DNA of 64,000 nucleotides from a virus: the IMG/VR virus record IMGVR_UViG_3300030118_003002, positions 1-64,000 of that record; one strand, written 5' to 3'. Under the pieces are notes generated by a model. It saw nothing but the letters and a program-made list of their open reading frames with translations, did not search any database and was not told the origin of the DNA. How positions within the stretch are numbered: the first letter of the stretch is position 1; every line of letters begins with the position of its first letter. This document shows positions 220-57,554 of the stretch, in pieces. A program made the translations under genes and the position numbers.

Positions 220-247
220 ATTGGGAAGAATAAACTGAGGTGATAAT

Positions 248-649
248 ATGGGTTGGCAAATTATCCTCAAACAATTGGCTTGTCCTAGAGCAACTCAAGA
301 TTTGATGCTTAATACTAAAAATAGAGATGCCGCAGTTAAAAACCCTAACATTAGATATGGCCCACTTAATCTAGAAGATGAAGAATATTGGGAAGAATAT
401 GCTGAAAGATGGAATACTACTGCTGATGTAGCAAAAGAATCTAATTGTAGTAATTGTATTGCATTTGATATATCCCCAAGAATGGATGATTGTATGCCTT
501 TAACTACCGATGAAGATGGTCGCTTAGGATATTGTTGGATGCATCATTTCAAATGTCATTCTGCTAGAACTTGTTATACTTGGGCTAAAGGTGGTCCAAT
601 TGATGATGATAAAACTTCTAAAGAAAATCAAATGAGGGGTGAAAAGTAA
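248..649 (+). CDS. cysteine-rich accessory virion-region protein
   Basis: The product is 133 residues with an acidic, aromatic middle and a cysteine cluster: CSNC near residue 67, then one Cys in MDDC, GYC, FKC and RTC. This suggests bound zinc or an iron-sulfur cluster. Similar short Cys-rich proteins occur near head genes of marine phages (from memory, unverified). It begins M-G-W-Q-I-I-L-K, the terminal W motif shared by several genes in this module. The start has a GAGGTGAT Shine-Dalgarno site, and the stop overlaps the next start (TAATG). Confidence 0.7.
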   Translation: MGWQIILKQLACPRATQDLMLNTKNRDAAVKNPNIRYGPLNLEDEEYWEEYAERWNTTADVAKESNCSNCIAFDISPRMDDCMPLTTDEDGRLGYCWMHHFKCHSARTCYTWAKGGPIDDDKTSKENQMRGEK

Positions 650-1134
650 TGACTTTACAACAAAGATATGATAGTCTTGATAGACATGGCAAAAAACTCT
701 TTGATTATTTACGAGCCATGAATGGGACAAGAGTAACTGATTATAAAAAATTGACTGAAAAACAAATGTTAGATGAAGTTGATAAAAAAATGAGAGTTAG
801 AGATAATCAAGAAGAAGCAAATCGAATATTTTCAAAACCACGAATGTTAAAATGGCAAGAAGTTCTAAAGAAGAAAAAGAAACCATTCAAAGGCTACAAT
901 AAAAAGATTCATGCAAGAACGGGTGGGCTAAGTGCTAAAGGTCGTGCTAAGTTTAAGCGTGAACAAGGCTCTAATCTAAAAGCCCCTGTTACTACTAAAC
1001 CAAGTAAATTGAAGCGTGGTAGTAAAGCCGCTAAAAGACGCAAATCTTTTTGTGCAAGGTCAAGAGGATTTAAGCGTGATGATGGGACATACAGTGAAAA
1101 AGCAAAAGCCGCTAGAAGAAGGTGGAATTGTTAA
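649..1134 (+). CDS. basic protein, DUF6321-like C-terminal domain
   Basis: The product is 161 residues and very Lys/Arg-rich. The C-terminal half (about residues 85-161) contains HARTGGLSAKGRAKFKRE and KAAKRRKSFCARSRGF, which resembles a short conserved domain of phage and environmental proteins that I associate with DUF6321. Function is unknown, but its charge suggests DNA or RNA binding. Residues 69-74 read W-Q-E-V-L-K, matching the W motif seen at the ends of neighbouring proteins. It is coupled to both neighbours by TAATG overlaps. Confidence 0.7.
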   Translation: MTLQQRYDSLDRHGKKLFDYLRAMNGTRVTDYKKLTEKQMLDEVDKKMRVRDNQEEANRIFSKPRMLKWQEVLKKKKKPFKGYNKKIHARTGGLSAKGRAKFKREQGSNLKAPVTTKPSKLKRGSKAAKRRKSFCARSRGFKRDDGTYSEKAKAARRRWNC

Positions 1135-1601
1135 TGTGGAGAGATTTGCTAAAGGCTGATTTTGTTGTTAAAACAAATTACCCCGAAGCGGATTTTTGGC
1201 TACAAAAAAGAGGTTCTGAACAGAATGTCGGAAAGCCCATGAGAAAATTTAGTGAGGTTCAAGGTAAATACAACATAGGAATTAAAATTCCTGAAGGAAT
1301 GAATAAAGAATATGTGTATGCACAATTAGCCGCTTTGTTCAGAAAAGGATATTGGAGAACACATTCTTATGGAACTTTGAATTTGCAACATATTAGAACA
1401 GATGATGTTAAGAAGATTTTAGAATCATTTGAAGATAAAGCAGACTACAAAGATACTACATCAGATAAAATAGAAAAGATATATGATAAATGGTTGAAGG
1501 ATTCTAAATTAGTTAGTCAGTTATTAATGTCAAGTAACTCTCTAATTAGAGAGGGTCGAGAAATTAAAAGGTTCTTACAGAAAATGGAGGACATGAGATG
1601 A
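1134..1601 (+). CDS. hypothetical protein upstream of portal
   Basis: The product is 155 residues and not recognised. The longest reading frame opens at a GTG at 1122, but the ATG at 1134 overlapping the preceding stop (TAATG) is the better start and places M-W-R-D-L-L-K at the N-terminus, a form of the module's W motif. The middle contains aromatic-rich segments (FRKGYWRTHSYGTLNLQH) and the C-terminus is helical and charged. It overlaps the next gene by ATGA. Its position next to the portal gene suggests a head or packaging role, but nothing else supports that. Confidence 0.7.
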   Translation: MWRDLLKADFVVKTNYPEADFWLQKRGSEQNVGKPMRKFSEVQGKYNIGIKIPEGMNKEYVYAQLAALFRKGYWRTHSYGTLNLQHIRTDDVKKILESFEDKADYKDTTSDKIEKIYDKWLKDSKLVSQLLMSSNSLIREGREIKRFLQKMEDMR

Positions 1602-1747
1602 AATACAAAGACTATCAATGGTGTGGTCGTTGTTATTGTGAACGGAATGATAGACCATACGGTTTCTGCGAATCATGTTGGATAAAGCATGGTCGCCCCA
1701 AACACATGAAAGCATCTATAAGAGAGTCCAAATCTAATGAAAACTAG
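1598..1747 (+). CDS. zinc-ribbon mini-protein
   Basis: This is a 49-residue protein with C-G-R-C-Y-C near residue 9 and C-E-S-C near residue 30, a plausible four-cysteine zinc knuckle. The C-terminus is basic. It overlaps the upstream stop by ATGA and ends 11 bases before the portal gene. It is one of several tiny zinc-ribbon proteins in this genome. Its function is unknown. Confidence 0.65.
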   Translation: MKYKDYQWCGRCYCERNDRPYGFCESCWIKHGRPKHMKASIRESKSNEN

Positions 1748-1758
1748 GGGTGTAATTT

Positions 1759-3408
1759 ATGGCTGATGGCAAGAGGCGATTTTCGTTTAGGCAATTATTT
1801 AGGCGTTCAACTCCCAAACCTGCTGATAGACAGATATACAACATGGGTATTCAAGAAAGACAGAATAACTACATGATGACTGCGCCTATCATTTATTCTA
1901 TGGTTCAACAATCAGTTATTGTTAGAACCTGTATTACTCAATTGAAACAGGAAGTGTATAGGAGAGGATATGTTTGGGAAAAGGCATACGATTCTATATG
2001 CAAAAGTTGTGGTAAAAAACACAACAGACCTGTAACTCAATGCTCAAGATGTGGTTCAGAAGATTTGAAGATGCCCGATGTAAAGCAATTAGAATATGCT
2101 GAAAAGTTCCTAGAAGGATATGTTAACCCATCAGAACAATTATTCATAGATGTATTGAAAGAATTAGAAGACGATTTGAATACTATGGATGATGCATATA
2201 TTGTTCTTGTTAAAGAATACTTTATTGACGGTAATGGTAAAATTAGAATGCACCGTATCAAAGAAGTATTTAGAGGCGACCCTGTAACCATGTTTATCTA
2301 TGCAGATGAAGATGGAGTAAAGGGAACAAAAGGATTTACTTGTATTAATCATAGAGATGTATTGCATACTGAACCTCATCATTCTTGTGAACAGTGCGGA
2401 GGCAATTTATATCCTGTTCATTATGTTAATAGAGCGAATGGTGACGACCAATATTTCTTAGAAGGGGAAGTATTACACTTTAGTAAATACAGTCCTAGCC
2501 GTCTTTATGGTTTCTCTCCTGTAATTACATTATACAATCATATTATGACTCTTATTGCTATGGAGAATTATGTCAATTCAGCATATACTAAGAGCAGAAT
2601 GCCAAGAGGATTGTTGGCAGTTCAAACTCGTAATTTAGATTCAATGAGAGCCTTTTGGCGTGGTGTTAAAGAGAAGATGGAGTCCGACCCTCACTTTATT
2701 CCTGTTATGGGTGTTGAATCAGATAGTGGCGGTAAAGGTGCTATTGAATGGATTAAGTTCATGGACAGTCTGAAAGAAATGGATTATATGTCTGTAAAGG
2801 ATGATTTAAGAGATAGGATTTCAGCATTCTATGGTGTCAGTAAAGTTTTCATGGCTGATAACACTACAAGCGGTGGTTTGAACAATGAAGGTATGCAGAT
2901 TCTAGTTACTAATCGTGCAGTTCAAATGGCGCAGAATGTGTATAATAATTATGTATTCCCTTACTTAGTTAAGCAATTTGGAATAACAGATTGGGTTCTA
3001 AAACTTCCTCCATCAGAAGAAGAAGATGAAATTGCTGAATTAAGGAAAAGAGAAATAGAAGTCAATATTGCGGCTTCTATTAAGAATTTAGGATTTGAAG
3101 TTGATATGGATGAAGAAGGTAACTTTACCTTTGAAAAACCAGAACCCGTTGAAGGTGAAATGGGAGAAGGCGGTAAAGAAGATAAACCGGCTGAAAAAGA
3201 CCCATATGCGGGAACAAACATTGATGCATCACAATTAGGACAAATGCAAGAACAGGCATTAGCGGCAGGTTCTAAACCACAGGAAAATCCCCCAGCCACA
3301 AGGAATAAAGCCTCAATGAATGTAGGGCCAGATAAGCGAATGTCAGGATTACCAGCAGAAGCAGGTAATCAAAATGTGGATAAAAGAACAGAAAGGAGAG
3401 TTGGTTGA
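1759..3408 (+). CDS. portal protein with zinc-ribbon insertion
   Basis: The 549-residue portal would form the ring at the unique capsid vertex through which DNA passes. The portal core is recognisable: an N-terminal segment with MVQQSVIVRTCITQLKQEV, a central region LYGFSPVITLYNHIMTL, and ISAFYGVSKVFMADN followed by NNEGMQILVTNR, as in phage portals. Residues about 80-98 hold CKSC and CSRC and a further CEQC follows near residue 215, indicating zinc ribbons inserted in the wing region, unusual for portals. The acidic, Pro-rich C-terminus is probably disordered. It lies upstream of protease and capsid genes in canonical head order. The start has a GGGGTG site. Confidence 0.9.
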   Translation: MADGKRRFSFRQLFRRSTPKPADRQIYNMGIQERQNNYMMTAPIIYSMVQQSVIVRTCITQLKQEVYRRGYVWEKAYDSICKSCGKKHNRPVTQCSRCGSEDLKMPDVKQLEYAEKFLEGYVNPSEQLFIDVLKELEDDLNTMDDAYIVLVKEYFIDGNGKIRMHRIKEVFRGDPVTMFIYADEDGVKGTKGFTCINHRDVLHTEPHHSCEQCGGNLYPVHYVNRANGDDQYFLEGEVLHFSKYSPSRLYGFSPVITLYNHIMTLIAMENYVNSAYTKSRMPRGLLAVQTRNLDSMRAFWRGVKEKMESDPHFIPVMGVESDSGGKGAIEWIKFMDSLKEMDYMSVKDDLRDRISAFYGVSKVFMADNTTSGGLNNEGMQILVTNRAVQMAQNVYNNYVFPYLVKQFGITDWVLKLPPSEEEDEIAELRKREIEVNIAASIKNLGFEVDMDEEGNFTFEKPEPVEGEMGEGGKEDKPAEKDPYAGTNIDASQLGQMQEQALAAGSKPQENPPATRNKASMNVGPDKRMSGLPAEAGNQNVDKRTERRVG

Positions 3409-3409
3409 T

Positions 3410-3739
3410 ATGACTTGGGAAAATATATTGAGAATTGAAAAGTTTAGAAATCCTTTTAAATCACAAAAAAAGGGAAGAGAAAAAATGCCTATCGAACTTT
3501 TTCAACGAAGGCATAGATTAAGTCCCGAAGTTATGAAAGAAGTTAGACAAAAAATACGACCATTAACCAATTTATACAAACAAAAAGTTCCTGAATTTGA
3601 GGCTAATGAAGAAAGCACACTTTGGATAATTTCTAAACATTTGACGGGCAAACAATCAAGAAATCCTGATGCTGATACTATTAATACCATAGATGAAATT
3701 ATTAGGAATTTAACAGATATGATAAATAGAAAAAGGTGA
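3410..3739 (+). CDS. small head-module protein with N-terminal W motif
   Basis: The product is 109 residues and not recognised. The frame extends upstream to 3374, but the ATG at 3410, one base after the portal stop and preceded by GGAGAG, is the better start. It begins M-T-W-E-N-I-L-R, the shared terminal motif of this module. The rest is basic and helical (LSPEVMKEVRQKIRPL). A scaffold, inhibitor or packaged protein is possible; none of these can be shown. Confidence 0.7.
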   Translation: MTWENILRIEKFRNPFKSQKKGREKMPIELFQRRHRLSPEVMKEVRQKIRPLTNLYKQKVPEFEANEESTLWIISKHLTGKQSRNPDADTINTIDEIIRNLTDMINRKR

Positions 3740-3743
3740 TTAA

Positions 3744-3971
3744 ATGTCAGAAGATTTGAAACAAAAAGAAATGAGACTGAAAAAAGAACTAGCAAAGGTC
3801 AGAACGCAGAATGCGGCAGATAATCGAAAGGTAACAGTTAGCCGTGATTATTCCGTTGGTGGACTTCCACCGGACACTTCACACAAACCTATCAATTCAT
3901 CTAACGATGTTCCTGATGTGGTTCTTTTACCAAAGCATAAAAGAGGAAAAAAAGAGAATATACCTTTCTGA
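3744..3971 (+). CDS. small hypothetical protein
   Basis: The product is 75 residues: a charged N-terminal helix (residues 3-21), then a Pro/Ser-rich, probably disordered stretch (GGLPPDTSHKPINSSND) and a basic tail. It is not recognised. The start has GGTGATTAA just upstream. It sits in the run of charged genes between portal and protease, so a structural or assembly role is likely by context only. Confidence 0.6.
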   Translation: MSEDLKQKEMRLKKELAKVRTQNAADNRKVTVSRDYSVGGLPPDTSHKPINSSNDVPDVVLLPKHKRGKKENIPF

Positions 3972-3980
3972 TGTGATAAT

Positions 3981-6900
3981 ATGTCATGGAAAGCGGTTTT
4001 GGCAGGGCGTGAAAACGACCCATCCTTTTTACTCAAATCATTAGTTGAGGATATAGAAAAGGCTATGGAAAGACAACCAAGACCTAGCCCATACCCTGCC
4101 GGTATGGGAGAAGGAAAGAATATAGAGGGAGGTATTAATGACATTAATGATTTCGCTAATAGAGCATTGTATCTTTACTTCAAAGGAAGACCTAAAGCAA
4201 AAGACGGATATGGCAGACCTAAAGACAAACCTAAGTTATCCCCCGAAGACAGCAGAAAGTTGAGAATACAAGTAAAAGAAGGTATCAAAAAAGATATTGA
4301 GAATTATTACGAAGAACTGAAAAAGAAAGTTAGTTCTGAAAAAATAGATTGGAAAGAACTGAAAGAAGAATGGTTAATTGATAATTTTTATTTCAGTGTT
4401 CCTAAAGGTGAAAAAAGAACAATTAATAGGAAATTTTTTGATGATAAAACTGCTGAACTCCCAAAGAAATTAAAACCTGAAAATTTAGACCCTTTATCCC
4501 AACCTATTAGGCAAAATATCATTAGAGTGTTAATTGTAGGAGATAGAGAACTACAACCCGAATACAAAAAAGCAAAAGAAGTTTTAGCAGAAAGAAAAAA
4601 AGAGTTAAAACAATGGGAAGATAGAGAAAAGGGAATCCGAGATTCTGACCTTGAAGATTATAAAAATACGCTAAGTAGGAAAAAATCAAATGTTATGTTG
4701 GCTACACAAGATGTTAAATGGTTAGAAGGCCAAATTGCAGAAGTTAAAAGTAAGCAATTTTCTAAAAAGCAATTATTTGCACAGTATGGTGGAGAGGCTA
4801 AATTCAAAAAAATAATTAAAGATTCTAAAAAAGCATTTATTGATAAAATGAAAGAACAAGAAATCAAAGTAATTGATGATGCTATCGAAAAAATACAAAA
4901 TGAAGTTGTAAGGTGGGTAACATCTTCCGAAAGAGATAACATTACCTTTATGGAAATTTATTCTGACCTTGAAGGAAAATCAGAATTGAAACAATTAAAG
5001 AAATTACTTCAAGATGAAGAAATGAAATCATTCTTTAATTCTCTTGAGAAGGTTAGATACGAACTCCCTAAAAAATGGAAGAAAATGACACCGAAGGAAA
5101 AGAATGATTGGAAACTTCAAAACAAAAGAAAATTCCAAGACAGTTATCAAAGAATACTCAAGAACTTAAAGGCTCTTAAAAATAAGTATTCTAAAATGGA
5201 AAGTAACACAACGATTAAAAGAAAGATTGATAACATAACTTCTGTCATTAATACTCTTGTTAAAAGATTCGATATGAAAAATTGGTCTAAAAGCGATAGA
5301 GAAGCAGAAGAAACAAAAAGAGAAAGAGGAACTTCTTTCAGAAGAACTAGCGATAGATTAACTGATGCACAAAGAAAAGAAAGTGAAAAATTTGAATTAA
5401 CTGCATTATACGAAGTCTTATTTAGTGACCCTGAATTGCTAGATAAAGGCAACATTAAAAGCAAATTTAAATCTTTTCTCTCTAGCGGTGATGTTGATGT
5501 GAGCGCACCAACTAAAAAATTATGGAAAGATTTCACTAGTAAATTAGAAGTATTTACTAAATCCCAAAATCCAGAAAAAGATTTTGTTAAGTTTATTGCT
5601 TCCAATGAATTATATCTTATTGATGTGGTTAATCTTCTTCAAACTAAAAGAAATAAAACGAAGATACCTGCAAAGAAATTAGTTCTTCAAAAACCTAAAA
5701 AAGAGAAAAAAGAAGAGATTGCAAGATTACCTCCAAGTAAGCGTAGGAAAGAAAAAGACCCTTTCAAAAAATCATATGTTCCTAGAGAACATGGAAGGAT
5801 GGGAGAATTAGCCTCACTTGGACAAGGCACAGGTTATGTTCCTAGAGCGCATGGCGCAAAACAAGAAGTCACCATAGCAGGGAAAAAAGAATCAAAGCCA
5901 ATTGGTAGCAATACAAAGGCTATGGAAGAAAGAATGAAGAAGTTAGGCAGACAATATAAACAAAAGATGCGAACTGATTTCAAAAAATTAAAAGAAAAAA
6001 TGAATACAATCAACACAGATGAATTTGATAAATATTTTAGTGAAGCAAAATCTGTCATGGATGCTGATTTATTTGCTTGGATTGACAAAACCAATAAAGG
6101 TATAGGATTACGGCCTTTTGCTTATGATAGTGAAGATAAAGGTTTTTCTGAGATTGAAGAATCTTCTAAAAAAATAATGAAGTTATTGAATAGCAAAATG
6201 CAATATGAAGGGGAAGAAATTAAAGTATTGAATTTAATCAATAAATTGGCAAGAAAGGTTTACAAAAAACAAGCAGGTGCGATTGTGTCTGCAAAAAGAA
6301 AGAGGATTTCTGAAGGATTGAAAGAAATTAAAGAATCAACAATTAGAAATATACAAAATCAAAAGAAAGTCGATTTCGAAATTCCTAGATTATTAAAATT
6401 AAAATTCAAGCAAGAAGGAATAAAACTTAAAAAATATTTCTATAATATTTTTGAAGCAACAGATACAAAAGATGGATTTGAGATAGATTTGCCTGAATTT
6501 AATTCCGGTAAAGCAAATAATTTTATTCGAATATCAGAAAATCTTAGTAACGAATTAACTGAAATTGAAAAGAAGTTATTTGATAAATGGAAAGAAATAT
6601 CTGAAAAACTAACGGAAGAATCAAAAGAAGAAGATGAAGCGAAAGAAAAAAGAACTGTTGGTCAAAGAGTTGGAGCATTATATATCGCAACGAGAGAATT
6701 AAACAAAATAGAAGATAATATCTATGAATATGATGAATTAATAGATAAAACTATGAGGCAAATCGGAATATTAGAAGTTGAAATTGAGGCTTTTATAGAA
6801 TTGTTTGAAAAAGCACAGAAGAAAGGGTTTATATCAGTAGCAACTAAAAGAACTTTACCCGACAAAGAACAGAAAGCATTAGCAGCCAAATATAATGAAA

Positions 6901-7049
6901 AAATACAAGATGCTAAAAGAAGCATGAAAAGAAAACTCAAGTTAATTCCTAACTTTAAAAAAGCAATTAAAAAATTAGATAAGTTAGGCGAAGGATGGAA
7001 AAAATCTCTTGAAAATATTAAAGAATCAACTAGGGGGAAAGAAGAATGA
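3981..7049 (+). CDS. giant Lys/Glu-rich coiled-coil head-module protein
   Basis: This 1022-residue protein is extremely rich in Lys and Glu, with long stretches of predicted coiled coil and no recognised enzyme motif. It starts M-S-W-K-A-V-L-A, the shared N-terminal motif. Around residues 590-630 a short motif occurs twice: YVPREHGRMG and YVPRAHGAK, with a Gly-rich spacer between. Placement between portal and protease suggests an internal virion or ejected protein packaged with the genome. That is inference from position, size and composition. It overlaps the next gene by ATGA. Confidence 0.75.
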   Translation: MSWKAVLAGRENDPSFLLKSLVEDIEKAMERQPRPSPYPAGMGEGKNIEGGINDINDFANRALYLYFKGRPKAKDGYGRPKDKPKLSPEDSRKLRIQVKEGIKKDIENYYEELKKKVSSEKIDWKELKEEWLIDNFYFSVPKGEKRTINRKFFDDKTAELPKKLKPENLDPLSQPIRQNIIRVLIVGDRELQPEYKKAKEVLAERKKELKQWEDREKGIRDSDLEDYKNTLSRKKSNVMLATQDVKWLEGQIAEVKSKQFSKKQLFAQYGGEAKFKKIIKDSKKAFIDKMKEQEIKVIDDAIEKIQNEVVRWVTSSERDNITFMEIYSDLEGKSELKQLKKLLQDEEMKSFFNSLEKVRYELPKKWKKMTPKEKNDWKLQNKRKFQDSYQRILKNLKALKNKYSKMESNTTIKRKIDNITSVINTLVKRFDMKNWSKSDREAEETKRERGTSFRRTSDRLTDAQRKESEKFELTALYEVLFSDPELLDKGNIKSKFKSFLSSGDVDVSAPTKKLWKDFTSKLEVFTKSQNPEKDFVKFIASNELYLIDVVNLLQTKRNKTKIPAKKLVLQKPKKEKKEEIARLPPSKRRKEKDPFKKSYVPREHGRMGELASLGQGTGYVPRAHGAKQEVTIAGKKESKPIGSNTKAMEERMKKLGRQYKQKMRTDFKKLKEKMNTINTDEFDKYFSEAKSVMDADLFAWIDKTNKGIGLRPFAYDSEDKGFSEIEESSKKIMKLLNSKMQYEGEEIKVLNLINKLARKVYKKQAGAIVSAKRKRISEGLKEIKESTIRNIQNQKKVDFEIPRLLKLKFKQEGIKLKKYFYNIFEATDTKDGFEIDLPEFNSGKANNFIRISENLSNELTEIEKKLFDKWKEISEKLTEESKEEDEAKEKRTVGQRVGALYIATRELNKIEDNIYEYDELIDKTMRQIGILEVEIEAFIELFEKAQKKGFISVATKRTLPDKEQKALAAKYNEKIQDAKRSMKRKLKLIPNFKKAIKKLDKLGEGWKKSLENIKESTRGKEE

Positions 7050-8113: not shown

Positions 8114-8119
8114 TGACCT

Positions 8120-11059
8120 ATGCCTAAATCCGGCCTTCTATTTGAGAAGAAGGGTAACGCTTCTAATCAAATACTTCAATTGTTTGAAAGAGTTAGGGTT
8201 GCCTATCTTTCTGCAAGAACCGACCCGAAAGAGTATGGTTCAAAATGGAGAAGTGCTATTGAATACATCAAAGAAGAATATGATGATTCGGGGAAGTTTG
8301 GAGAAGAATTGAAACGCTACATTGATGATAAGGATTTGAATAATGAAGATGCTTCCGATGTAACTACTACTATTGCTGAAAAGATATACGAAGCAGTAAA
8401 AAAACTTCGATATGCTTCTGATGAAGTTTCTGACCCTTTTGCTAAACACTTCAAAGATAATGTTCTTGAAGCGTTATTAGAATCACCGGAAACAATGGTT
8501 AAATTCTTGCATTATGCTATGAGAAATGACAATAAAGCACTTAATCCATCCATTTACAGCGTTAAAGACATGAAACCTGACACCATTACGGATGGTCTTA
8601 TGGGACTTGACCTAGAAGTGGATGATATTCCCCTCTATATTATTGAGCATTATGGGGATGGAAAAGACTCAAAGAAGGTGGAAAAGAAAGTTAAGTCTGC
8701 TATGGCTATGTTAGAACTATTATTCTTTTCTAAACACAATGAAGAAGATTGGGAAGAGTTAGAAGATATTGACATGGAAACTGATACACCTAAAAAAATG
8801 ATTGAAAAATCAGAAACAGAAAAGGGTAAGACAGATTTCATTACTCCTAACAAACCTATGTATAGAATATTTGACATTGAAGACATGGAAGAGTTAAAAG
8901 GATTTAGCGGTGAATATATTGTTCAAGAAAAATATGACGGTATGAGAATACAGGTTCATAAAATAGACAACAAGATTAAAGTTTATTCCTATAATGAAAA
9001 AGATATTACTGATAAATGTAAAGAAATTGTTGAAGAAATGAAGAAGAAACACTTTGGGGATTGTATTCTAGATGGTGAATTAATATTATTTGATGGAAAG
9101 GATGCACTACATAGAGCAGACACTATTGCTCATGTGTTTAAGGGTAAATATCCCGATGCTAAACTAAAAGCACATATGTTCGACATTATGCGACACAATG
9201 ATAAAAATATTGCAGATGAACCTTTGAGTGATAGATTGAACACAATGTTCAATAATTATTCTGTTCATTCGAGTGAATATCTAAACTTCCCTTCTAAGAA
9301 AGATACTCGATTAGCGGATTCGATTAAAGAAGTTGAACAGTATTCAAAAGAAATAATGGATATGCCTACTGCCGAAGGTGTAGTCATTAAAGATTCAACT
9401 TCCACATATTACATAGGGACTAAGAAAAATCCTAAATGGATTAAATGGAAGAAATTTGTTGATTTAGATTTAATTGTATTAGATAAAAAGAAAACTAAAT
9501 CTAAACTTTATTCATATACATTAGGGGCTGGACCGGCTGATGAAGGACAAGAAATTAATGGTCTTAAATATATGAATGTAGGAAAAGCATTGAATACTAA
9601 AATATCTGTTGATATTGGAGATATTGTTCGTGTAAAAGTTGATGAGGTAAAAAAGAAAGGAGATGCTTATTCGATTTATTCTGCTAAAGTAATAGAAGTT
9701 CCGGAAGTGGAATATCCTGATAAATTGGTCACACTTGAGTTGTTATCTAAAGATACAAAGAAATCTTTGAATTACGATGTAAAAGCATTAGAAAAGGGAG
9801 TAAGTGTTACTGATTATATTCACGGTGAAACTAATGTTATTATTAAAGGTGACATGGATGGGTTTACTATTTACGGGTTTGATGAAAGTAACTTAATGTC
9901 TAAAAATGCTTTAGCGAATTTAGATGAATGGAAAAGTCAAGCAGAAGCGATAATGAAAACAAAACAGTCTAGATTAACTGTTGCGGCTTTTCAACATCTA
10001 AAAGAAAGAGGTGCAAAAACCCCTAAAGAGTTACATGATTTCTTAGTTAAAAATCATTCTAAAATATATGAAGATATTTTAGAAAGTAAAATGAATAGAC
10101 TTTCTAATTGGATGGATGAAAGAGATGGTATTTCTTTTGATAAGAAAGAAAAGAAATTAATTGCAGACCCCGATAAGATTATGCAAGATGAAGAAGAAAT
10201 TAAAAAATCCTTTTTACTCAAAAATCAAAGACTTCTCCAAGAAGCAAAAGAATTAGAAGAAGAAGTTACTATTAGTGCTGATGCTGATATGGAAGGAGAC
10301 TGTTGTTCTAAACTTAAATCAGACTATTTATCTATACTTAAAGAAAGTTTAGATACATTAGTAAAAGAGTATGGTGGTTATAAAAAATATGTTAAAGCAC
10401 GAAGCAATCCTTCAAACACATATGATTATGCCCCGACATTAGAAGAAGAACATGAAGAAATGGAAACAACTGTTTTAGACTTGTCTTGTGAAGAATTAGT
10501 CAAGGAATTGACTGAATTCTTTGAAGAAGAAGGCTATGAAGACATAGGACAACTTCTCGATGAATATAAAAATTGTCAGTTCGGAGAAGGATTCTCAGAT
10601 AAATATGCTATGTTAAAAGCATATAAGACTCCAAAAAAACTTCAAGAGGGTAATTTCAAATTATATCTAAGGGATGATGAAAACTTAAACTTAGTAATTA
10701 AGTTAGAAGATGAAACACTTAATTGGTTAATAGACTTAGAAAAAGACGATGATATATTCAGATTGTTTGGAAAGGCGAATAAATACCCTGCCCAAATAGC
10801 AACTAACATTTCCAAGAAGAAAATTATAGATTCTGGAGAAATAGGACTCGGTGTTCAGAAAGAAGGCTATCACGAATATTTCTTGAGAGGTAATAAGTTT
10901 GAAACTAAACTGCACTTTAGAGTAATAGAAGTGGATGGAAAGGAAATGTGGTTGGCTTGGACAGGGTATAAACAGAAGCCAGCAGATAAAGACACTGATG
11001 CTGGATTATGGAATATTTACGAAGATAAGTATAAAAAATTGCCACTTCCACCTAAATGA
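8120..11059 (+). CDS. large protein with internal ATP-dependent DNA ligase core
   Basis: This 979-residue protein carries a complete nucleotidyltransferase core in the middle. Motif I is EKYDG (Lys271 would be adenylated), followed by LDGE at 317-320, EGVVIK at 419-424 and KWIKWKK near 439-445, then an OB-fold-like region to about residue 560. Residues 1-240 are a charged domain of unknown type. The last 400 residues are unassigned; their final 110 faintly resemble LigD-type 3'-phosphoesterase folds, which I cannot confirm. It lies between portal and protease genes, not with replication genes, and a second canonical ligase is encoded at 54672-56201. It may be packaged and repair nicks or ends after entry; that is inference. 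Confidence 0.85.
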   Translation: MPKSGLLFEKKGNASNQILQLFERVRVAYLSARTDPKEYGSKWRSAIEYIKEEYDDSGKFGEELKRYIDDKDLNNEDASDVTTTIAEKIYEAVKKLRYASDEVSDPFAKHFKDNVLEALLESPETMVKFLHYAMRNDNKALNPSIYSVKDMKPDTITDGLMGLDLEVDDIPLYIIEHYGDGKDSKKVEKKVKSAMAMLELLFFSKHNEEDWEELEDIDMETDTPKKMIEKSETEKGKTDFITPNKPMYRIFDIEDMEELKGFSGEYIVQEKYDGMRIQVHKIDNKIKVYSYNEKDITDKCKEIVEEMKKKHFGDCILDGELILFDGKDALHRADTIAHVFKGKYPDAKLKAHMFDIMRHNDKNIADEPLSDRLNTMFNNYSVHSSEYLNFPSKKDTRLADSIKEVEQYSKEIMDMPTAEGVVIKDSTSTYYIGTKKNPKWIKWKKFVDLDLIVLDKKKTKSKLYSYTLGAGPADEGQEINGLKYMNVGKALNTKISVDIGDIVRVKVDEVKKKGDAYSIYSAKVIEVPEVEYPDKLVTLELLSKDTKKSLNYDVKALEKGVSVTDYIHGETNVIIKGDMDGFTIYGFDESNLMSKNALANLDEWKSQAEAIMKTKQSRLTVAAFQHLKERGAKTPKELHDFLVKNHSKIYEDILESKMNRLSNWMDERDGISFDKKEKKLIADPDKIMQDEEEIKKSFLLKNQRLLQEAKELEEEVTISADADMEGDCCSKLKSDYLSILKESLDTLVKEYGGYKKYVKARSNPSNTYDYAPTLEEEHEEMETTVLDLSCEELVKELTEFFEEEGYEDIGQLLDEYKNCQFGEGFSDKYAMLKAYKTPKKLQEGNFKLYLRDDENLNLVIKLEDETLNWLIDLEKDDDIFRLFGKANKYPAQIATNISKKKIIDSGEIGLGVQKEGYHEYFLRGNKFETKLHFRVIEVDGKEMWLAWTGYKQKPADKDTDAGLWNIYEDKYKKLPLPPK

Positions 11060-11067
11060 ACCGTGTC

Positions 11068-11076
11068 TTTAATATA
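11068..11076 (+). promoter_or_regulatory. candidate TATA box before protease/capsid genes
   Basis: The sequence TTTAATATA lies in a 46-base gap, 30 bases before the protease ATG. It matches archaeal TATA-box composition. This is one of the few gaps in the left arm and precedes genes needed in high copy, so a promoter is plausible. No BRE or start site can be proven by eye. Confidence 0.35.
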
Positions 11077-11105
11077 GTGAAAGAAATTACAAGGGGTTGA
11101 AGAAC

Positions 11106-12344
11106 ATGAGCATTAGTGTCATGGCAACAAGGAATGATGATTTCAGAATTCTAAAAAGCGATGATTTAATGATTGGAGGATATGCAAGTATTGAAATCGT
11201 GGATAAACAAAACGATTTAATTACATTAAATGCATTAAAAACCGCAGTTACAAAATTCATGGAAGATAAAAAATTCAGAAATGTAATGACAAATCATTCA
11301 AATGTTCAAGTTGGAGAAGTTGTGGACTCTTATAGAGATAAAACCGGAAAACTATGGAAATCGGAAGTTGATGATGTAGGATTCTTTGTAGTAATTAAAT
11401 TAAGAGATGACATAGAAAAAGCCAAAGAGGTTGGGAGAGGTATTCGCAAAGGCACATTAAGGTCTTTTAGCATAGGTGGACAGGCATTACAAAAAGTAAA
11501 GAAAAGCCACGGTGAATTAGGGGAGTATAACGAGATAAGCAAATTAGAACTCCATGAAGTAACAATATGTGAAAAAGGCATTAATCCCGAAGCGAAGTTT
11601 GATATTCTGAAACAAGATATTGGAGATGAAAAAATGAGTGATAAACTAGAAAAAGCACTAAATGAATTAGATACTCTTCTAAAAGAAGTTGAGAGTCTAA
11701 AGGGAGATGATGAGGAGTCTATGGATTCCAATTCTGAAATGATGGAAGAAAATGCTGAATACATGGAAATGGCTGATGATGGCGATATGGAGAGAGGCGA
11801 TTACATGAAAGGCGATGATGAAGATGATGAGAAAGAAGGAACACACCCTTCTTACAAGGATGATGCAGAAAAAGCATACCTAAGAACACTTGATGGAGCA
11901 GGTAATCAAATTGGTGAACCAGCAGATAGAATCGTCATTAACAACGGAAAGCCAACTGCTTCCGATATGCCGGTTGTAAAAGCATTTGAAAACAATGAAT
12001 TTGATACACTAAACCTATCAAATGCAAACATTGAGAAGGCTTACGAAGCATTCCGTCAAGAAAAACTTGAGGAACTAGCATACGATAACCTTCGCAAGTC
12101 TTTTGAAACTCGCTTTAGCAGTGAAGTTTCAAACCGTGAGAACATTCTCGCAAAGTCACAATATGACGCACAGGCTGAAATTGCTTCCATTAAAGAAGAA
12201 TTTAGCGAACTAAGAAAGTCTCTTACTGCTGAAAAGGAAACTATCCTAAAAGCACAAGAAGAGTCAGTAATTAAAATGCCATCAATTGATGATATTGCAT
12301 CAATGGAATGGAGCGATATTCACAAAATGGTGAACAATATTTGA
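11106..12344 (+). CDS. prohead protease fused to scaffold domain
   Basis: This 412-residue protein would cleave head proteins during capsid maturation. The N-terminal 170 residues look like an HK97/XkdF-type serine protease: MTNHSN (His64), LRSFSIGG (Ser120/Ser122) and LHEVTICEKGINPEAKF. The rest is acidic then helical, typical of a fused scaffold. The C-terminus ends S-M-E-W-S-D-I-H-K-M, the motif also ending the 79-residue protein at 7404. The frame opens at TTG 11097, but AAGGGG places the start at ATG 11106. The major capsid gene follows after 10 bases. Confidence 0.88.
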   Translation: MSISVMATRNDDFRILKSDDLMIGGYASIEIVDKQNDLITLNALKTAVTKFMEDKKFRNVMTNHSNVQVGEVVDSYRDKTGKLWKSEVDDVGFFVVIKLRDDIEKAKEVGRGIRKGTLRSFSIGGQALQKVKKSHGELGEYNEISKLELHEVTICEKGINPEAKFDILKQDIGDEKMSDKLEKALNELDTLLKEVESLKGDDEESMDSNSEMMEENAEYMEMADDGDMERGDYMKGDDEDDEKEGTHPSYKDDAEKAYLRTLDGAGNQIGEPADRIVINNGKPTASDMPVVKAFENNEFDTLNLSNANIEKAYEAFRQEKLEELAYDNLRKSFETRFSSEVSNRENILAKSQYDAQAEIASIKEEFSELRKSLTAEKETILKAQEESVIKMPSIDDIASMEWSDIHKMVNNI

Positions 12345-12354
12345 GGTGATTAAG

Positions 12355-13689
12355 ATGACAGGATATATTAACACAATAGCAGATTTAGAAGCACAAACAT
12401 ACGGAATGAATCTTCCAGCCGGAAATGCCTTGCTAAAGCAAGCAGGTATGGTTGGTGGAATACACACAGGACATGACGGTTCTCCGTCATTTAGCGGTTC
12501 AGCCGTTTCTGATGTGTCAGCACTATACAATGTCGTTTATGGACAAAAAGTTTGGTCTATGCTAAACCGTGAAGTAAACGCACTTTCAATGATTTCAAAG
12601 AGACCATACACTTCAAGCGGTTGGAGAGTATTAAAGAGCAGACCTGCTGGTGGTAGCGGTAATCTATTTACTGTTGATAAAGCAAATGTTTCCCTAACAT
12701 TGGGAGAATTGGGTTCAGACACACCAAGAGCAGATTCTATTGGTGGTGTTCCAGAAAATGCTGGACTTTCAACTGCACAAGATGGATTAGGGCCAATTGC
12801 GCCAACATACGCTCAATTGAACATGAGTCCTAAAGTCGTTGCACATCAATTTGATTTCAGCGAATTGGCTATGGAAATGGCACAGATTGATGATGGAATT
12901 GGCGATATTAGAGCGCAAATGCGTGAAGATATGGGTAAGCACCATGCTGAAGTGCAGAACAAAATGCTTGTAATGCCACTAGAGTTTTATGGTGAATCAG
13001 CACTATTGCCAAATATTGCTAACAATTACACTTCGCTATTGAAGGTTATTACTTCAAAGGCTGAATTAGACCTATTGGATGCACAATCTTCTCTAATGAC
13101 AGATGGTGCTACTGCAACAAATGTAAGCCACATTTACGGAACTAACCGTGATAGTGCTTCTTTCCTTGATGCAGAAGTGGATGCAGGTTCAACTTATGCG
13201 GCAACAGGAGTTAGAGCATTAACTCTAACTTTGCTAAATAACATGGTTCGAAATCTAAGACTTGCTGGTGGTTCACCAAAGGTTATTCTAACCGGATATG
13301 ATACCATTCAAGCACTTGCAGACCTATTGCAGAGTCAAGAAAGATTTATGGATAGAAAGGAAATTGTTCCAACAGTGAACGGTGTTCGTGGAACAAAGGG
13401 TCAAGAAGTAGGATTTAGAGTAGCAACATACTACGATATTCCGCTAATTCCTGTAAAGGACATGACAACTACCGGACTAGCATCATCTAAACTATCAGAC
13501 CTACTATTCCTTGATACAGACCATCTATGGCTATCAGTTATGAAGCCAACTCAATACTTTGAAGATGGTATCGCTAATGGAAACCCATTCGGTGTAGGAA
13601 CATTAGGTAACAGGGCTTTGTATAGAACAATCGGTGAAGTCGGTTGTTCTTTCTTCAAGGGTCAAGGAAAAATTACTAACATACAGTGA
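12355..13689 (+). CDS. major capsid protein, HK97 fold
   Basis: The 444-residue major head protein directly follows the protease/scaffold gene. It has the features of tailed-archaeal-virus capsid proteins: a mobile N-terminal arm, the segment MLNREVNALSMISKRPYTSS, a long spine-helix region (QMREDMGKHHAEVQNKMLV) and a C-terminal domain with PKVILTGYDTIQALADLL and VKDMTTTGLASSKLSDLLFL. The frame opens at GTG 12346, but GAGGTGAT fits the ATG at 12355. The assignment rests on family resemblance plus order. Confidence 0.85.
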   Translation: MTGYINTIADLEAQTYGMNLPAGNALLKQAGMVGGIHTGHDGSPSFSGSAVSDVSALYNVVYGQKVWSMLNREVNALSMISKRPYTSSGWRVLKSRPAGGSGNLFTVDKANVSLTLGELGSDTPRADSIGGVPENAGLSTAQDGLGPIAPTYAQLNMSPKVVAHQFDFSELAMEMAQIDDGIGDIRAQMREDMGKHHAEVQNKMLVMPLEFYGESALLPNIANNYTSLLKVITSKAELDLLDAQSSLMTDGATATNVSHIYGTNRDSASFLDAEVDAGSTYAATGVRALTLTLLNNMVRNLRLAGGSPKVILTGYDTIQALADLLQSQERFMDRKEIVPTVNGVRGTKGQEVGFRVATYYDIPLIPVKDMTTTGLASSKLSDLLFLDTDHLWLSVMKPTQYFEDGIANGNPFGVGTLGNRALYRTIGEVGCSFFKGQGKITNIQ

Positions 13690-13709
13690 GGAAATAAGGA
13701 GAGGATAAT

Positions 13710-13973
13710 ATGGCATTTGCAACAGAAATACATTTAGAAATGAATTTAGAAGGAAACAGGAGAATTGTTTGTGGTCAAACCACTAGCGATTCAACAGACG
13801 GAAATATCGAAACAGGGCTTTCAAGCGTTGATTCTCTAGTATTCACCCATAAGGGTTCTGCTGAAGAAGCAGCCGCAGCAGTAATTAACGCTGATTTGCC
13901 ACTTGCAAGCGGTGATGTAGCAATACATTGTGTTAGCGGTGATGTAGTATATTTCATGGCTATTGGTCAGTGA
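13710..13973 (+). CDS. small virion protein, possible capsid decoration
   Basis: The product is 87 residues, Ala/Ser/Asp-rich and beta-like (VDSLVFTHKG, DVAIHCVSGDVVYFMAIG), directly after the capsid gene. Its size and position fit a decoration or head-stabilising protein. The segment AIHCVSG resembles TIHCVSITG of the next gene, so the two may be related. Not otherwise recognised. Confidence 0.6.
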   Translation: MAFATEIHLEMNLEGNRRIVCGQTTSDSTDGNIETGLSSVDSLVFTHKGSAEEAAAAVINADLPLASGDVAIHCVSGDVVYFMAIGQ

Positions 13974-13983
13974 GGTGTTTTAA

Positions 13984-14343
13984 TTGGCACTAGAATATAC
14001 AGTAACTCTTTTGGGCGACCATAAAGGTATTACTCGCCCTAAAGTTAGTGGTGATGAATATGTGGTTGACGCACTATTAGATGTGACTTCTCATGTGCAG
14101 GCAGGGGCAGAAATCCCTGCTTCTGCATTTGGTCTATCAACAATACATTGTGTATCAATTACCGGACATGAGGGTGCTAACGATGTTTACCCACAGATTC
14201 TAACTTCAACAGGCGGTCTTTATGAATCAGACAGTTCTTTCTTGATTATATTTACTAATCTAGACGGAACAAACGCTACTGCGGCTTCTGATGATGGCGA
14301 CCCAACTTGTGCAACAAGACTTAGAATTTGGGGCAATCTTTGA
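13984..14343 (+). CDS. small virion protein, possible second decoration protein
   Basis: The product is 119 residues, beta-rich and acidic, likely a head surface or fibre-like subunit. It uses a TTG start: GAGGTG lies seven bases upstream and no ATG fits. The motif STIHCVSITG is shared in part with the upstream 87-residue protein, suggesting duplication and divergence. Function is inferred from its location between capsid and small head genes. Confidence 0.55.
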   Translation: MALEYTVTLLGDHKGITRPKVSGDEYVVDALLDVTSHVQAGAEIPASAFGLSTIHCVSITGHEGANDVYPQILTSTGGLYESDSSFLIIFTNLDGTNATAASDDGDPTCATRLRIWGNL

Positions 14344-14353
14344 GGTGAATTAA

Positions 14354-14701
14354 TTGGTTAAACTTAAATTAACCCCTAATTCAACAATAGGATTACTACA
14401 AGTTACACCAAACGATACTATCACAAGAGAAAAAGAAATAGAAGTTAGCGTTGCCTTTGCGATTAATCGCATTGGCGACCCTAACTATCTATTCACTTTT
14501 GAAGAATGTGACCGTTTGGATTTAGAAAAAGCCGATGAAAAATTATTGGCTAGTGCTTGTTCGGGATTAGGTAAAGACGAATTAACGGCAGAAATGCTGG
14601 TAAAAACTCTATTACCGCCTAAAGTAGTCCCTAAGAAAAAGACTACTACCAAAAAGACTACTGCTAGTAAATCTTCTAGCAAATCAAGTCTTACGGAATA
14701 A
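14354..14701 (+). CDS. small head-module protein with Lys/Thr/Ser tail
   Basis: The product is 115 residues. The first 95 form a compact domain (LQVTPNDTITREKEIEV, then FTFEECDRLDLEKADE), followed by a low-complexity tail of Lys, Thr and Ser. It starts at TTG with GAGGTGAAT upstream. The tail resembles that of the 44-residue protein at 23366. The position just after capsid genes suggests a head-completion role. Not recognised. Confidence 0.6.
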   Translation: MVKLKLTPNSTIGLLQVTPNDTITREKEIEVSVAFAINRIGDPNYLFTFEECDRLDLEKADEKLLASACSGLGKDELTAEMLVKTLLPPKVVPKKKTTTKKTTASKSSSKSSLTE

Positions 14702-14713
14702 TAACAACCGGCA

Positions 14714-14722
14714 TATTAAATA
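14714..14722 (+). promoter_or_regulatory. candidate TATA box in 61-base gap
   Basis: TATTAAATA lies in the longest gap of the head region, about 41 bases before the next ATG. It is followed by a short hairpin (CAGCG, 7-base loop, CGCTG, 14725-14741). The arrangement could be a promoter with a structured leader. The evidence is sequence resemblance only. Confidence 0.35.
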
Positions 14723-14762
14723 GTCAGCGTTAGCCTCGCTGTATTTAGAAGGGGTGATGAAC

Positions 14763-15062
14763 ATGGGTTATTCATGCAGGTCAAGCGGTGTTTTAGGTGC
14801 TAGCAAATTAATTGTTACAGGAAGAACAAAACTAGTTAGCGTTCACGCTGCTCTTTTTGTTACGGGCGGAGACGCAGTAACCATTAATGTATTCGATGGA
14901 ACTGATAATACAGGAACTAAAATAGCCATGATTTCAAGTGCAACCAACGGTTATCATAATTTAGAATATGATATGCATGGTGTTCTGTGCAATACAGGAT
15001 TATTCCTAGAAGTAGCAGAAGCCGGTTCATCCACCGTTAATGTTTCTATTGAATTTAACTGA
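14763..15062 (+). CDS. small beta-rich virion protein
   Basis: The product is 99 residues, mostly alternating hydrophobic strands (LIVTGRTKLVSVHAALFVTG, AVTINVFDGTDNTGTKIAM, STVNVSIEFN). It resembles the small jelly-roll or Ig-like subunits used as head decoration or fibres in tailed viruses, but no family is certain. The frame has GTG and ATG codons upstream, but GGGGTGATGAAC fits the ATG at 14763. Confidence 0.6.
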   Translation: MGYSCRSSGVLGASKLIVTGRTKLVSVHAALFVTGGDAVTINVFDGTDNTGTKIAMISSATNGYHNLEYDMHGVLCNTGLFLEVAEAGSSTVNVSIEFN

Positions 15063-15071
15063 GGTGGTCGG

Positions 15072-15461
15072 ATGGCGGCACTAAATCAAGATACTAGACT
15101 AATTATGACTATACTATTCGTTGGCACTGTTAGCGGTGCTAATGTATATTTTTATGCTAACTACGGAGTCAATTTCCCATACACTACATTAGCCCATGCG
15201 ACACTGTTTGGTCTAATTACTGTTGGTGGAATTATGTGCCTAAAGGCTATCTTTGATTTATCACTTAATGATAAGATAGAATTGAGATTGTTAGATAGAA
15301 GAATTAATGCTTATTGGGAGCGCAGGGCGAGAGATGAGCAACAAAGACAAAAACTTACAGAAACTATGAAGCAATACAATACTACTGTTATTGCACCAAG
15401 CACCACAATGTATGAAACCGAAAACACAATTTCAAATGACTTTTTGGCTAAACTACAATGA
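15072..15461 (+). CDS. two-helix membrane protein
   Basis: The product is 129 residues with two predicted membrane helices (about 10-30 and 38-60) and a charged cytoplasmic C-terminal helix (RLLDRRINAYWERRARDEQQ). It has no known family. It is first in a three-gene cluster of membrane proteins that ends with the small GTPase at 15689. A GAGGTGG site overlaps the upstream stop. A holin is possible, but the long charged tail and GTPase neighbour suggest something else. Confidence 0.65.
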   Translation: MAALNQDTRLIMTILFVGTVSGANVYFYANYGVNFPYTTLAHATLFGLITVGGIMCLKAIFDLSLNDKIELRLLDRRINAYWERRARDEQQRQKLTETMKQYNTTVIAPSTTMYETENTISNDFLAKLQ

Positions 15462-15470
15462 GGTGGTTGA

Positions 15471-15686
15471 ATGTTTAATGACATAATGGGTTTTACAGAA
15501 ACCGACTATGTTTATAATCAAAGCAGAGCGCATTCTGCTGATATGTTTTTTATGAAGATGAGAATGTGGTTTTGGGTCACTTGCGCCTCTTTGTCATTTT
15601 TCTTCTTAGGAAACATAATGGGAGTTTTTGACATAAATGTTGTTGGTTGGCTATTAGACAACCTTTGGCATTCTTGGGAGGTTTAA
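15471..15686 (+). CDS. single-pass membrane protein
   Basis: The product is 71 residues with one hydrophobic segment (MWFWVTCASLSFFFLGNIMG, about residues 31-50) and a Trp-rich C-terminus (WLLDNLWHSWEV). It lies between the two-helix membrane protein and the GTPase gene, whose Shine-Dalgarno site GGGAGG is embedded in its last codons. Function is unknown; a small membrane partner of the GTPase is a reasonable guess. Confidence 0.6.
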   Translation: MFNDIMGFTETDYVYNQSRAHSADMFFMKMRMWFWVTCASLSFFFLGNIMGVFDINVVGWLLDNLWHSWEV

Positions 15687-15688
15687 TC

Positions 15689-16351
15689 TTGTCAGTGATG
15701 ACAGGTTTCGCTATTCTTGTTGGAGAAGCGATGATAGGTTTTTGGAAAAAAATACATGCAATTAATTTTGGAGTTTATGGCGCAACAATGGTAGGTAAAA
15801 CAACATTAAGCCATCAATTGAGAACAAGAGGAGAAGTGCAGCAAATTAATGAAAGGACTGTTGGATTACATAGACCAACAAGAAAAACAATTAAGATAGA
15901 TGGAGATATGCACACAATAAGAAGTTCTGATATAGGAGGAGAAGCGATATATTGGAAAGAATGGGCTAAAGACATGAGAATGAGAAAACCCAAATACATT
16001 ATTTTTATGATAGACCATAGACATTTAGATAGCGGAGTTAATTTAGACCATCAAGTAGCGTGGAAGTTTTTGGTTGATGTTATTATTAATCATAGATGGC
16101 CGAATGGTAAAAAGAAAAAAGAAAAGGACTATCCTTTAGCAGTAGGAATATGGGCTAATAAATATGATATATGGGGAGAAAAACATAAATCAGAAAAGTC
16201 TATTGAAAAACATGAAATTTTTGAACCTTTCAAATACGGAATGAGGCAACTAAATGATAAAGGAATACCGACATTCAAATACATAGTATCAGCAAAATCA
16301 GACCCCGAAATGGTGTATAAAGGAATCACTACAATGATAAAGGACTATTGA
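15689..16351 (+). CDS. membrane-anchored Arf/Ras-like small GTPase
   Basis: This 220-residue protein carries the ordered motifs of a small GTPase: G1 GATMVGKT (31-38), a switch I Thr in ERTVG (55-59), G3 DIGG (81-84), G4 NKYD (157-160) and G5 SAK (201-203). The G3 context DIGGEAIYWKEW resembles the Arf/SRPR-beta branch, with Glu in place of the catalytic Gln. Residues 2-18 are hydrophobic, so it is probably anchored to the cytoplasmic membrane. The start is TTG at 15689, eight bases after GGGAGG; the frame opens at 15647 inside the previous gene, without a matching site. Two membrane-protein genes precede it. Its role is unknown. Confidence 0.8.
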   Translation: MSVMTGFAILVGEAMIGFWKKIHAINFGVYGATMVGKTTLSHQLRTRGEVQQINERTVGLHRPTRKTIKIDGDMHTIRSSDIGGEAIYWKEWAKDMRMRKPKYIIFMIDHRHLDSGVNLDHQVAWKFLVDVIINHRWPNGKKKKEKDYPLAVGIWANKYDIWGEKHKSEKSIEKHEIFEPFKYGMRQLNDKGIPTFKYIVSAKSDPEMVYKGITTMIKDY

Positions 16352-16716
16352 TGATTATGTGGAAGATGATTCTAAAAACAAACCATCTAGATAGTATTAA
16401 GGAAACTGCCGAACAATATTTTTTGAAGTTAAATAGTGGGGAGAAAGTAAAGATTTTTTTGACCAAACATTTTAGTGACAATTTACAATCAAGATTCCCC
16501 GATATTAAAATAAAAAGAATCAAAAACGCTATCGAAAGAAAACTTAATCGAGGACAACTACCGGAAAAAACTACAATCATTGTAAAATTAGTTAGGCAGA
16601 AAAAGAAAGACGCATATTTAGTAATTAAAAGATATAGCAGAAATATTCATGTAAAGACAATTAGACATATGCGAGAAGACCAAAAGAAACGATTTTCAAT
16701 AATAGAAGAAAACTGA
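16351..16716 (+). CDS. small basic protein downstream of GTPase
   Basis: The product is 121 residues, strongly basic, starting M-I-M-W-K-M-I-L-K, so residues 3-9 match the module's W motif. A TGATG overlap couples it to the GTPase gene. The middle has a helix-turn-helix-like run (RIKNAIERKLNRGQLPEKTT) and the rest alternates strands and charged residues. It may bind nucleic acid or the GTPase; neither is shown. Confidence 0.6.
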   Translation: MIMWKMILKTNHLDSIKETAEQYFLKLNSGEKVKIFLTKHFSDNLQSRFPDIKIKRIKNAIERKLNRGQLPEKTTIIVKLVRQKKKDAYLVIKRYSRNIHVKTIRHMREDQKKRFSIIEEN

Positions 16717-16725
16717 GGAATAAAT

Positions 16726-17406: not shown

Positions 17407-17408
17407 AT

Positions 17409-18062: not shown

Positions 18063-18073
18063 GTTGATTCACA

Positions 18074-57552: not shown

Positions 57553-57554
57553 AT

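Follow-up and report, generated by a model that had tools for sequence, protein, structure and literature searches.

A portable terminal peptide on otherwise unrelated late proteins of magrovirus-like viruses, a candidate capsid-targeting signal

The locus and its virus

We analysed the first 64,000 bases (called the window here) of the 96,234-base virus record IMGVR_UViG_3300030118_003002 from IMG/VR. In this window, a short tryptophan-centred peptide, which we call the tag, recurs at the ends of several proteins encoded in the head block (Table 1; genes are named by their first position). An earlier note, made from the letters of this DNA, had listed eight copies, and all eight are present in the sequence, including the internal one in gene 649. 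Two details of that list needed correction. The peptide of gene 16357 exists as described, and its frame opens at 16348 and not at 16351. The peptide given as MSWKAVL at 3981 is also present, and the residue after its L is A and not K. The frame of gene 1134 opens at a GTG at 1122, and that of gene 3410 opens at 3374.

The plus strand encodes a portal protein, an S78 prohead protease and an SU10-like major capsid protein, identified by Pfam and PHROG profile matches, together with genes that we read from their translations as tail genes. Translations of the minus strand were read as PolB, a sliding clamp, a clamp loader, a transcription factor B, a ligase and a GroEL-like chaperonin (57555–59072). 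The order Magrovirales is described as having archaeal-type replication genes, a chaperonin and two opposed gene clusters in 90–100 kb (PMC10768690). The record shows this gene set, the strand switch and a length of 96234 bases. By genes, opposed clusters and size, the window fits this order, as part of a magrovirus-like archaeal tailed virus, one of the uncultivated viruses of marine archaea. The best capsid matches in the phage collection are to haloarchaeal viruses such as HVTV-1 and HCTV-1, at approximately 25 % identity. A terminase-like gene was located at 92.1 kb of the record (E 1.9e-4, just under the cut-off of its family). The window's first 30 bases have a second copy 99 bases short of the record's end, although the match does not stay exact all the way; the record ends therefore probably overlap. 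Two runs of tagged genes flank the terminase-like gene: one extends from 95.1 kb round to 16.7 kb, and the second lies outside the window at 80.1–86.6 kb.

Table 1. Tags, related tails and head genes in the window. Homologues were counted regardless of whether they carry a tag; only distinct ones with their start in view are included.
Feature	Position	Strand	Gene and evidence
Open reading frame (ORF) resembling the 3' part of a tagged gene that starts MSWKDILK	7–219	+	Record gene 95962–96234 ends in the same peptide
N-terminal tag MGWQIILK	248–271	+	Gene 248–649, 133 residues; 24/25 distinct homologues N-tagged
Internal tag MLKWQEVLK	844–870	+	Gene 649–1134, directly before the DUF6321 part
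N-terminal tag MWRDLLK	1134–1154	+	Gene 1134–1601, Pfam DUF6943 borderline; 5/5 distinct homologues tagged
Portal protein gene, untagged	1759–3408	+	phrog_18178 4.2e-67
N-terminal tag MTWENILR	3410–3433	+	Gene 3410–3739; 2/2 distinct homologues tagged
Variant tag MSWKAVLA	3981–4004	+	Gene 3981–7049, 1022 residues
79-residue protein gene, MDWSDIHKM at 7593–7619	7404–7643	+	Alignment, structure model
Prohead serine protease (S78), MEWSDIHKM at 12303–12329	11106–12344	+	PF04586 1.3e-8
Major capsid protein gene, untagged	12349–13689	+	PF17236 9.5e-7, phrog_24667 1.4e-23
N-terminal tag MWKMILK	16357–16377	+	Gene 16357–16716

The single untagged homologue of gene 248 among 25 is a short fragment. 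The gene 248 protein is related to phage proteins annotated as 'high potential iron-sulfur protein'. Gene 649 has its copy inside the protein, and 19 of its 26 distinct homologues are N-tagged instead. For the ORF at 7–219 and gene 95962, 38 of 40 distinct homologues are tagged. No homologue of gene 16357 was found in the loci compared. Gene 95962–96234, which would span the record join, shows weak EF-hand matches.

Distribution of the tag

The pattern W..[IVL][ILVH][KR] was counted in distinct ORFs of at least 60 residues from loci picked by portal or capsid homology, and the counts were compared with those from 20 shuffles. The W of the pattern falls at one of residues 1–6 in 244 of 2417 ORFs on the plus strand, compared with a shuffle mean of 0.9 and a maximum of 2. 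Up to ten residues from the C terminus, 190 plus-strand cases were found (shuffles 2.2, maximum 5), and 144 were found elsewhere in these ORFs (shuffles 33.7, maximum 47). The 1858 minus-strand ORFs hold one N-terminal copy, one C-terminal copy and two elsewhere. Chance origin was rejected, with the shuffles and the opposite strand almost empty of terminal copies. Tallied position by position, 319 N-terminal copies yield M-[STNKDE]-W-[KQEF]-[DEN]-I-L-K, and K occupies the last place in 315 of them.

Twelve records were examined: the window's own and eleven others, which had been found through the DNA pattern itself. These eleven come from 50 records checked for a capsid gene, out of at least 80 such loci; the capsid gene was found in 32 of the 50. 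Nine of the twelve were counted as magrovirus-like, eight of 91–99 kb and one (G041) of 71 kb. G041 has 11 tagged genes and no capsid match; it was retained because, from a reading of the translations, its genes resemble magrovirus tail and replication genes and it ends before the head block. Three records (G007, G044 and G045) were excluded, having no capsid match and one tagged gene each, of the same 74-residue family. Records were processed in 20-kb pieces, and therefore genes spanning the cuts were missed or split.

Across the nine records, 110 of 581 late-strand genes are N-tagged, compared with 0 of 516 genes on the opposite strand. The number of N-tagged genes per record ranges from 7 to 20, a count that is biased upward because eight of the nine records were chosen as pattern holders; the shuffles yield 0.05–0.3 per record. 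We take the tagged genes to be expressed late from the strand that they share with the structural genes. The tag is also concentrated on one side of the capsid gene. Eight records have a capsid gene that was located. In these, the tag is carried by 94 of 323 late genes up to 40 kb upstream of it, compared with 5 of 172 up to 26 kb downstream (the tail side), where all five lie within 7 kb. Late genes outside both ranges carry no tag (0 of 38).

Among distinct capsid loci that were not picked by the pattern, 56 of 79 carry one or more tagged genes in the 9–10 kb upstream. Controls with related capsid proteins showed no tagged genes: 0 of 57 in a 47-kb stretch of HVTV-1, 0 of 51 in a 45-kb stretch of HCTV-1 and 0 of 59 in the whole vir519 record. 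The DNA pattern for M-S-W-K-[DE]-I-[LF]-K gave 12 single matches from scattered taxa in a genome collection of 257 billion bases, where a rough estimate from base frequencies predicts a few by chance. The same pattern occurs in at least 119 stretches of the viral collection. The tag is unlikely to be a general cellular feature, since so large a genome collection yields only these 12 scattered matches. The earlier note named two outcomes that would refute it: lack of the motif at these termini in related viruses, or equal frequency in shuffled controls. Neither was seen, since the motif is present in homologous loci and in the pattern-bearing viral stretches, and it is not reproduced by the shuffles or by opposite-strand genes.

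A portable peptide on unrelated proteins

After trimming of the tags, 833 tagged ORFs (792 N-terminal and 41 C-terminal) were grouped by blastp at 1e-3 into 307 clusters, an upper estimate: blastp misses relationships between short proteins, and truly independent families will be fewer. Of these clusters, 84 have at least two members and 223 are single. One ancient family as the source of all tagged proteins was rejected, given 307 clusters after trimming. The 19 tagged proteins of the window's record alone fall into 19 clusters. The consensus of 71 cluster representatives reads MSWxxILK followed by three scattered majority residues, and that of 98 other representatives reads MxWxDILK followed by one majority residue.

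The tag is not confined to one end. C-terminal tags in clusters 5, 10 and 13 (KKSWQDILRW, LKSWMDILRN and FPEWKKILRGD, for example) stand at otherwise variable ends. Of the 12 C-tagged members of cluster 10, 11 are matched by an N-tagged protein of G041 (E 2e-62 to 3e-8), and this homology means that the tag has switched ends within one family. In cluster 5, two of nine N-tagged members directly match C-tagged ones (E 4e-4 to 4e-6). In the window, the core gene 7046 begins with MTWDYY..ILK, and the strict pattern is seen in 0 of 81 near homologues; its relatives in G046, G014 and G039 start MSWKEILK.

The proteins had been described in the earlier note as otherwise unrelated. This holds, with the qualification that the prohead protease and the 79-residue protein share a tail of approximately 20 residues; they are the only pair alike at E <0.01 among the 25 window genes compared (7–19846). 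Homologues of two tagged domains were found in 17 and 6 phage records, and the four of these phage homologues that were inspected are all without the tag. HTVC033P gp42 starts MAKSKSTVN and Lederberg 52 starts MPKKSTVN; the corresponding sequence in the window's record is MTWEEVLKKKKKKSTVN. The N terminus of HMO-2011 gp63 is longer and of another sequence, and in cyanophage S-TIP28 gene 63 the DUF6321 part is present and the tag is absent. The best phage match to gene 248 spans residues 11–120, i.e. it begins after the tag. This match lies in phage DSL-LC01, where the gene has a longer N-terminal part and adjoins a capsid maturation protease gene. The tag is a conserved, portable terminal peptide of late-strand, head-side genes.

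Codon use in the tag was examined over 250 cluster representatives. All six leucine and all three isoleucine codons are used, which indicates that conservation is at the peptide level. The bases outside the tag carry little information, except for a G-rich stretch at −12 to −7 that resembles a ribosome site.

Pfam scans covered 169 of the 307 cluster representatives (71 and 98). At a threshold of 0.001, at most 9 of the 71 and 7 of the 98 gave a match. The matches include a PAP2 phosphatase (5e-15), a CCA tRNA nucleotidyltransferase (4.2e-17), pentapeptide repeats (1.7e-10) and a tRNA-ligase phosphodiesterase domain (2.2e-6). S-adenosylmethionine lyase (5.9e-4) and the HsdM N-terminal domain (2.7e-4) were matched weakly; both would fit anti-restriction roles and are no proof of them. 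PADLOC gave no matches on the 98 representatives. In our reading, the tagged set is a large, fast-changing repertoire, and it probably includes counter-defence and early-takeover proteins. In G033, six neighbouring tagged genes (56918–60859) have common starts, for example MKWKDILKNVITQGRV and MSWQDILKETIAQNRV, and form a duplicated cargo family.

Tails of the prohead protease and the 79-residue protein

The tails of these two proteins align over 20 residues (55 %, E 7e-5). Near the protein end, the pattern M.W..[IV][HND] is found in 88 of 90 distinct homologues of the protease and in 77 of 79 distinct ones of the 79-residue protein. In the four exceptions, two from each set, L replaces M. Both tails vary by lineage. 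In distant records both differ from those of the window: MSWGDIHN and MEWDDIHK are found in G046, and MTWDDVHS and MAWEDIHE in G014 and G039. G023 and G022 have MSWEEIND or MSWDEIND together with MDWSEIDE. The model of the 79-residue protein (mean pLDDT 63) consists of a helix at residues 2–26, a loose linker and a helix at residues 66–77 that holds the tail. We take this layout to be reminiscent of small scaffolding proteins, and the model makes the protein a candidate small scaffold. No solved structures were found for the protease and the capsid.

A scoring matrix was built from 300 N-terminal tag sequences, with 1612 opposite-strand W-centred 7-mers as the background. For five of the six window tags, 0 of 1612 background 7-mers score as high, and for SWKAVLA 5 of 1612 do; this test leans toward the window tags, some of which are among the 300 sequences. 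The eight tail variants are equalled or exceeded by 6 to 195 of the 1612. By these scores, the N-terminal W..IL[KR] and the tail W..IH are similar but distinct patterns. The earlier note had merged them into a single motif; the likeness of the tails to the cargo tag is no more than suggestive.

Interpretation

The tag is likely to be a capsid-targeting signal that loads proteins into the head, as in the internal proteins of T4. We consider this the best fit because the tag is a portable terminal module, is found on the late strand only and lies mostly upstream of the capsid gene. On these grounds, the docking peptide for the procapsid that the earlier note had proposed is the explanation that suits the data best, and a single site for both W..IL and W..IH is about as likely as not. 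According to this explanation, a late protein that bears W-x-[DEN]-I-L-K at its N or C terminus would bind, through this stretch, a component of the assembling procapsid, for which the major capsid protein is one candidate. The tagged protein would be enclosed before DNA packaging and would later be ejected with the genome into the next host. For the protease and the 79-residue protein, the way in may be their own C-terminal tail, W-x-[DE]-I-[HND], which resembles the tag; such a shared route would suit a scaffold–protease pair. That tagged proteins are packaged and ejected, that a receptor binds the tag, that the cargo acts as effectors and that both patterns use one site are all inferences from the genes.

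Two papers describe the T4 internal proteins as unrelated, sharing only an N-terminal leader that directs packaging, and as injected with the DNA (PMC9026906, PMC12373910). The second paper states that a signal of this type led to the ip genes of T4-like phages, that Ip1–3 each block certain restriction enzymes, and that at least ten internal proteins are reported in T4 relatives (PMC12373910). Both systems place a short terminal peptide on otherwise unrelated accessory proteins. The magrovirus repertoire is much larger, with 307 clusters compared with the at least ten internal proteins reported for T4 relatives. The tag also differs in occurring at either terminus and in a virus of archaea, and mostly without an L/I-x-E site directly after it. 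At the level of sequence, the features of the T4 arrangement are seen in the magrovirus tag, except for the cleavage site.

In herpesviruses, the protease and the scaffold share one C-terminal capsid-binding tail and are encoded by nested in-frame genes. The likeness is that one short tail closes both the magrovirus prohead protease and another protein of the head block; the difference is that the genes are separate (Table 1) and that this other protein is only 79 residues long. In P22-like scaffold-derived cargo loading and in encapsulin cargo-loading peptides, a short peptide is thought to be sufficient to load an HK97-fold shell. The magrovirus tags differ from these in being natural, in their large number per genome and in belonging to a tailed virus that has a portal, a protease and a terminase-like gene.

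Several observations weigh against capsid targeting. The described magrovirus family is known by metagenomics only (PMC10768690), and eight of the nine records counted here were picked for holding the pattern. No tagged gene lies in the 9–10 kb upstream of 23 of the 79 distinct capsid loci. A T4-type L/I-x-E site is mostly absent directly after the tag, the position that the check covered, with E at +6 in 26 of 319 copies. The gene 3981 family is without the K: the strict pattern is seen in 0 of 7 homologues, and the family keeps W..[VI][LI][ASV]GRE, perhaps a second tag class. The model of the gene 248 protein is unusable (pLDDT 44), and that of the 79-residue protein is of low to middling confidence. 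The tail DWSEIDE scores poorly, being reached by 195 of 1612 background 7-mers. Finally, Ser-2 is encoded by AGT in 123 of 250 starts, with few other serine codons, and ATA encodes the tag isoleucine with a higher frequency than it does isoleucine across the genes as a whole. Untagged genes share the AGT preference less strongly (45 of 78). Because of this stronger preference in tagged genes and the over-use of ATA, some spread by DNA copying is possible.

Whether the tails belong to the same system is a separate question, and here the balance is even: the tag may target cargo while the W..IH tails are an unrelated motif with another partner. Their matrix scores lie far below those of the tags, and position +4, which is H, N or D in the tails, is H in just 2 of the 319 N-terminal tags. 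Against such a separation, W, an acidic residue at +2 and I/V at +3 are common to both patterns in the lineages examined.

The tag might also be an address elsewhere, to the host membrane, a replication site or the virus-encoded chaperonin, on proteins that would work inside the cell in which the virus is made and would stay out of the particle. Short peptides of Trp, Ile, Leu and Lys can bind membranes or chaperones, and the virus does encode a GroEL-like chaperonin. This is nevertheless unlikely, given the head-side concentration of the tags, their absence from the 516 opposite-strand genes and the similar tail on the prohead protease, a protein that must enter the procapsid.

We regard it as more doubtful still, and quite improbable, that the tag serves chiefly as a cleavage signal for the prohead protease, is lost during maturation and does no targeting itself. 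The T4 prohead protease cuts off targeting peptides (PMC9026906), and an S78 protease is present in the virus. The low count of E at +6 speaks against such a site, as far as L/I-x-E, the T4 rule, applies to the S78 protease, which may have another; the protease itself and the 79-residue protein bear a similar tail, which also argues against it. A purely DNA-level element at gene starts (a translation or recombination signal, with the peptide as by-product) was rejected and is very hard to credit: most copies do lie at start codons, with AGT at codon 2 and ATA over-used, but the synonymous codons are diverse, the same peptide is found at C termini and little base information extends beyond the tag.

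A more specific form of the capsid-targeting explanation can be put forward tentatively, as a possibility that we would not yet favour. In this form, the tag would be a packaging code: an address usable at either end, read at the same procapsid site as the protease and scaffold tails, so that approximately eight added codons would turn a protein into virion cargo. If true, the code would mark hundreds of injected-effector families in ocean archaeal viruses. If capsid targeting in its general form is right, a simple sequence rule would be enough to list what uncultivated archaeal viruses inject; domains could be recognised in few of the tagged proteins scanned. The tag would further serve as a natural means of bringing proteins into the shell of an archaeal virus, and the injected set of archaeal tailed viruses would become directly testable. 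In the literature on magroviruses and capsid targeting that was covered, judged by titles and opening lines of abstracts and with most subscription papers and bioRxiv outside it, no description of the tag was found. Six tag strings are absent from the papers of the searched library, and the word 'motif' is absent from the passages of magrovirus papers that were examined.

Other observations in the head block

Homologues of gene 3981–7049 (approximately 1000–1300 residues) keep the first 25 residues well, and the remainder diverges to 26 % identity. The window also encodes an untagged head-block protein of 979 residues (8120–11059) with an ATP-dependent DNA ligase domain at residues 259–444. 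Between the capsid and tail genes, 15647–16351 may encode a small GTPase of the Ras/Arf-like type whose N-terminal stretch is hydrophobic; its Roc match is weak (E 0.0042, below the cut-off).

In G039, the portal gene appears to be in two pieces (64616–66290) with a gap of approximately 470 bases, as might result from an intron, an intein or a frameshift. A split portal gene in G014 was dropped as an artefact, since the gene spans the 40-kb cut.

HVTV-1 has a gene annotated as zeta toxin between the portal and the protease. Its head-block genes 113, 115 and 116 (at 9230, 13623 and 17557) share VY[IV]x[ST][LP][DQ]EAPE, which is perhaps the shared head motif of another lineage.

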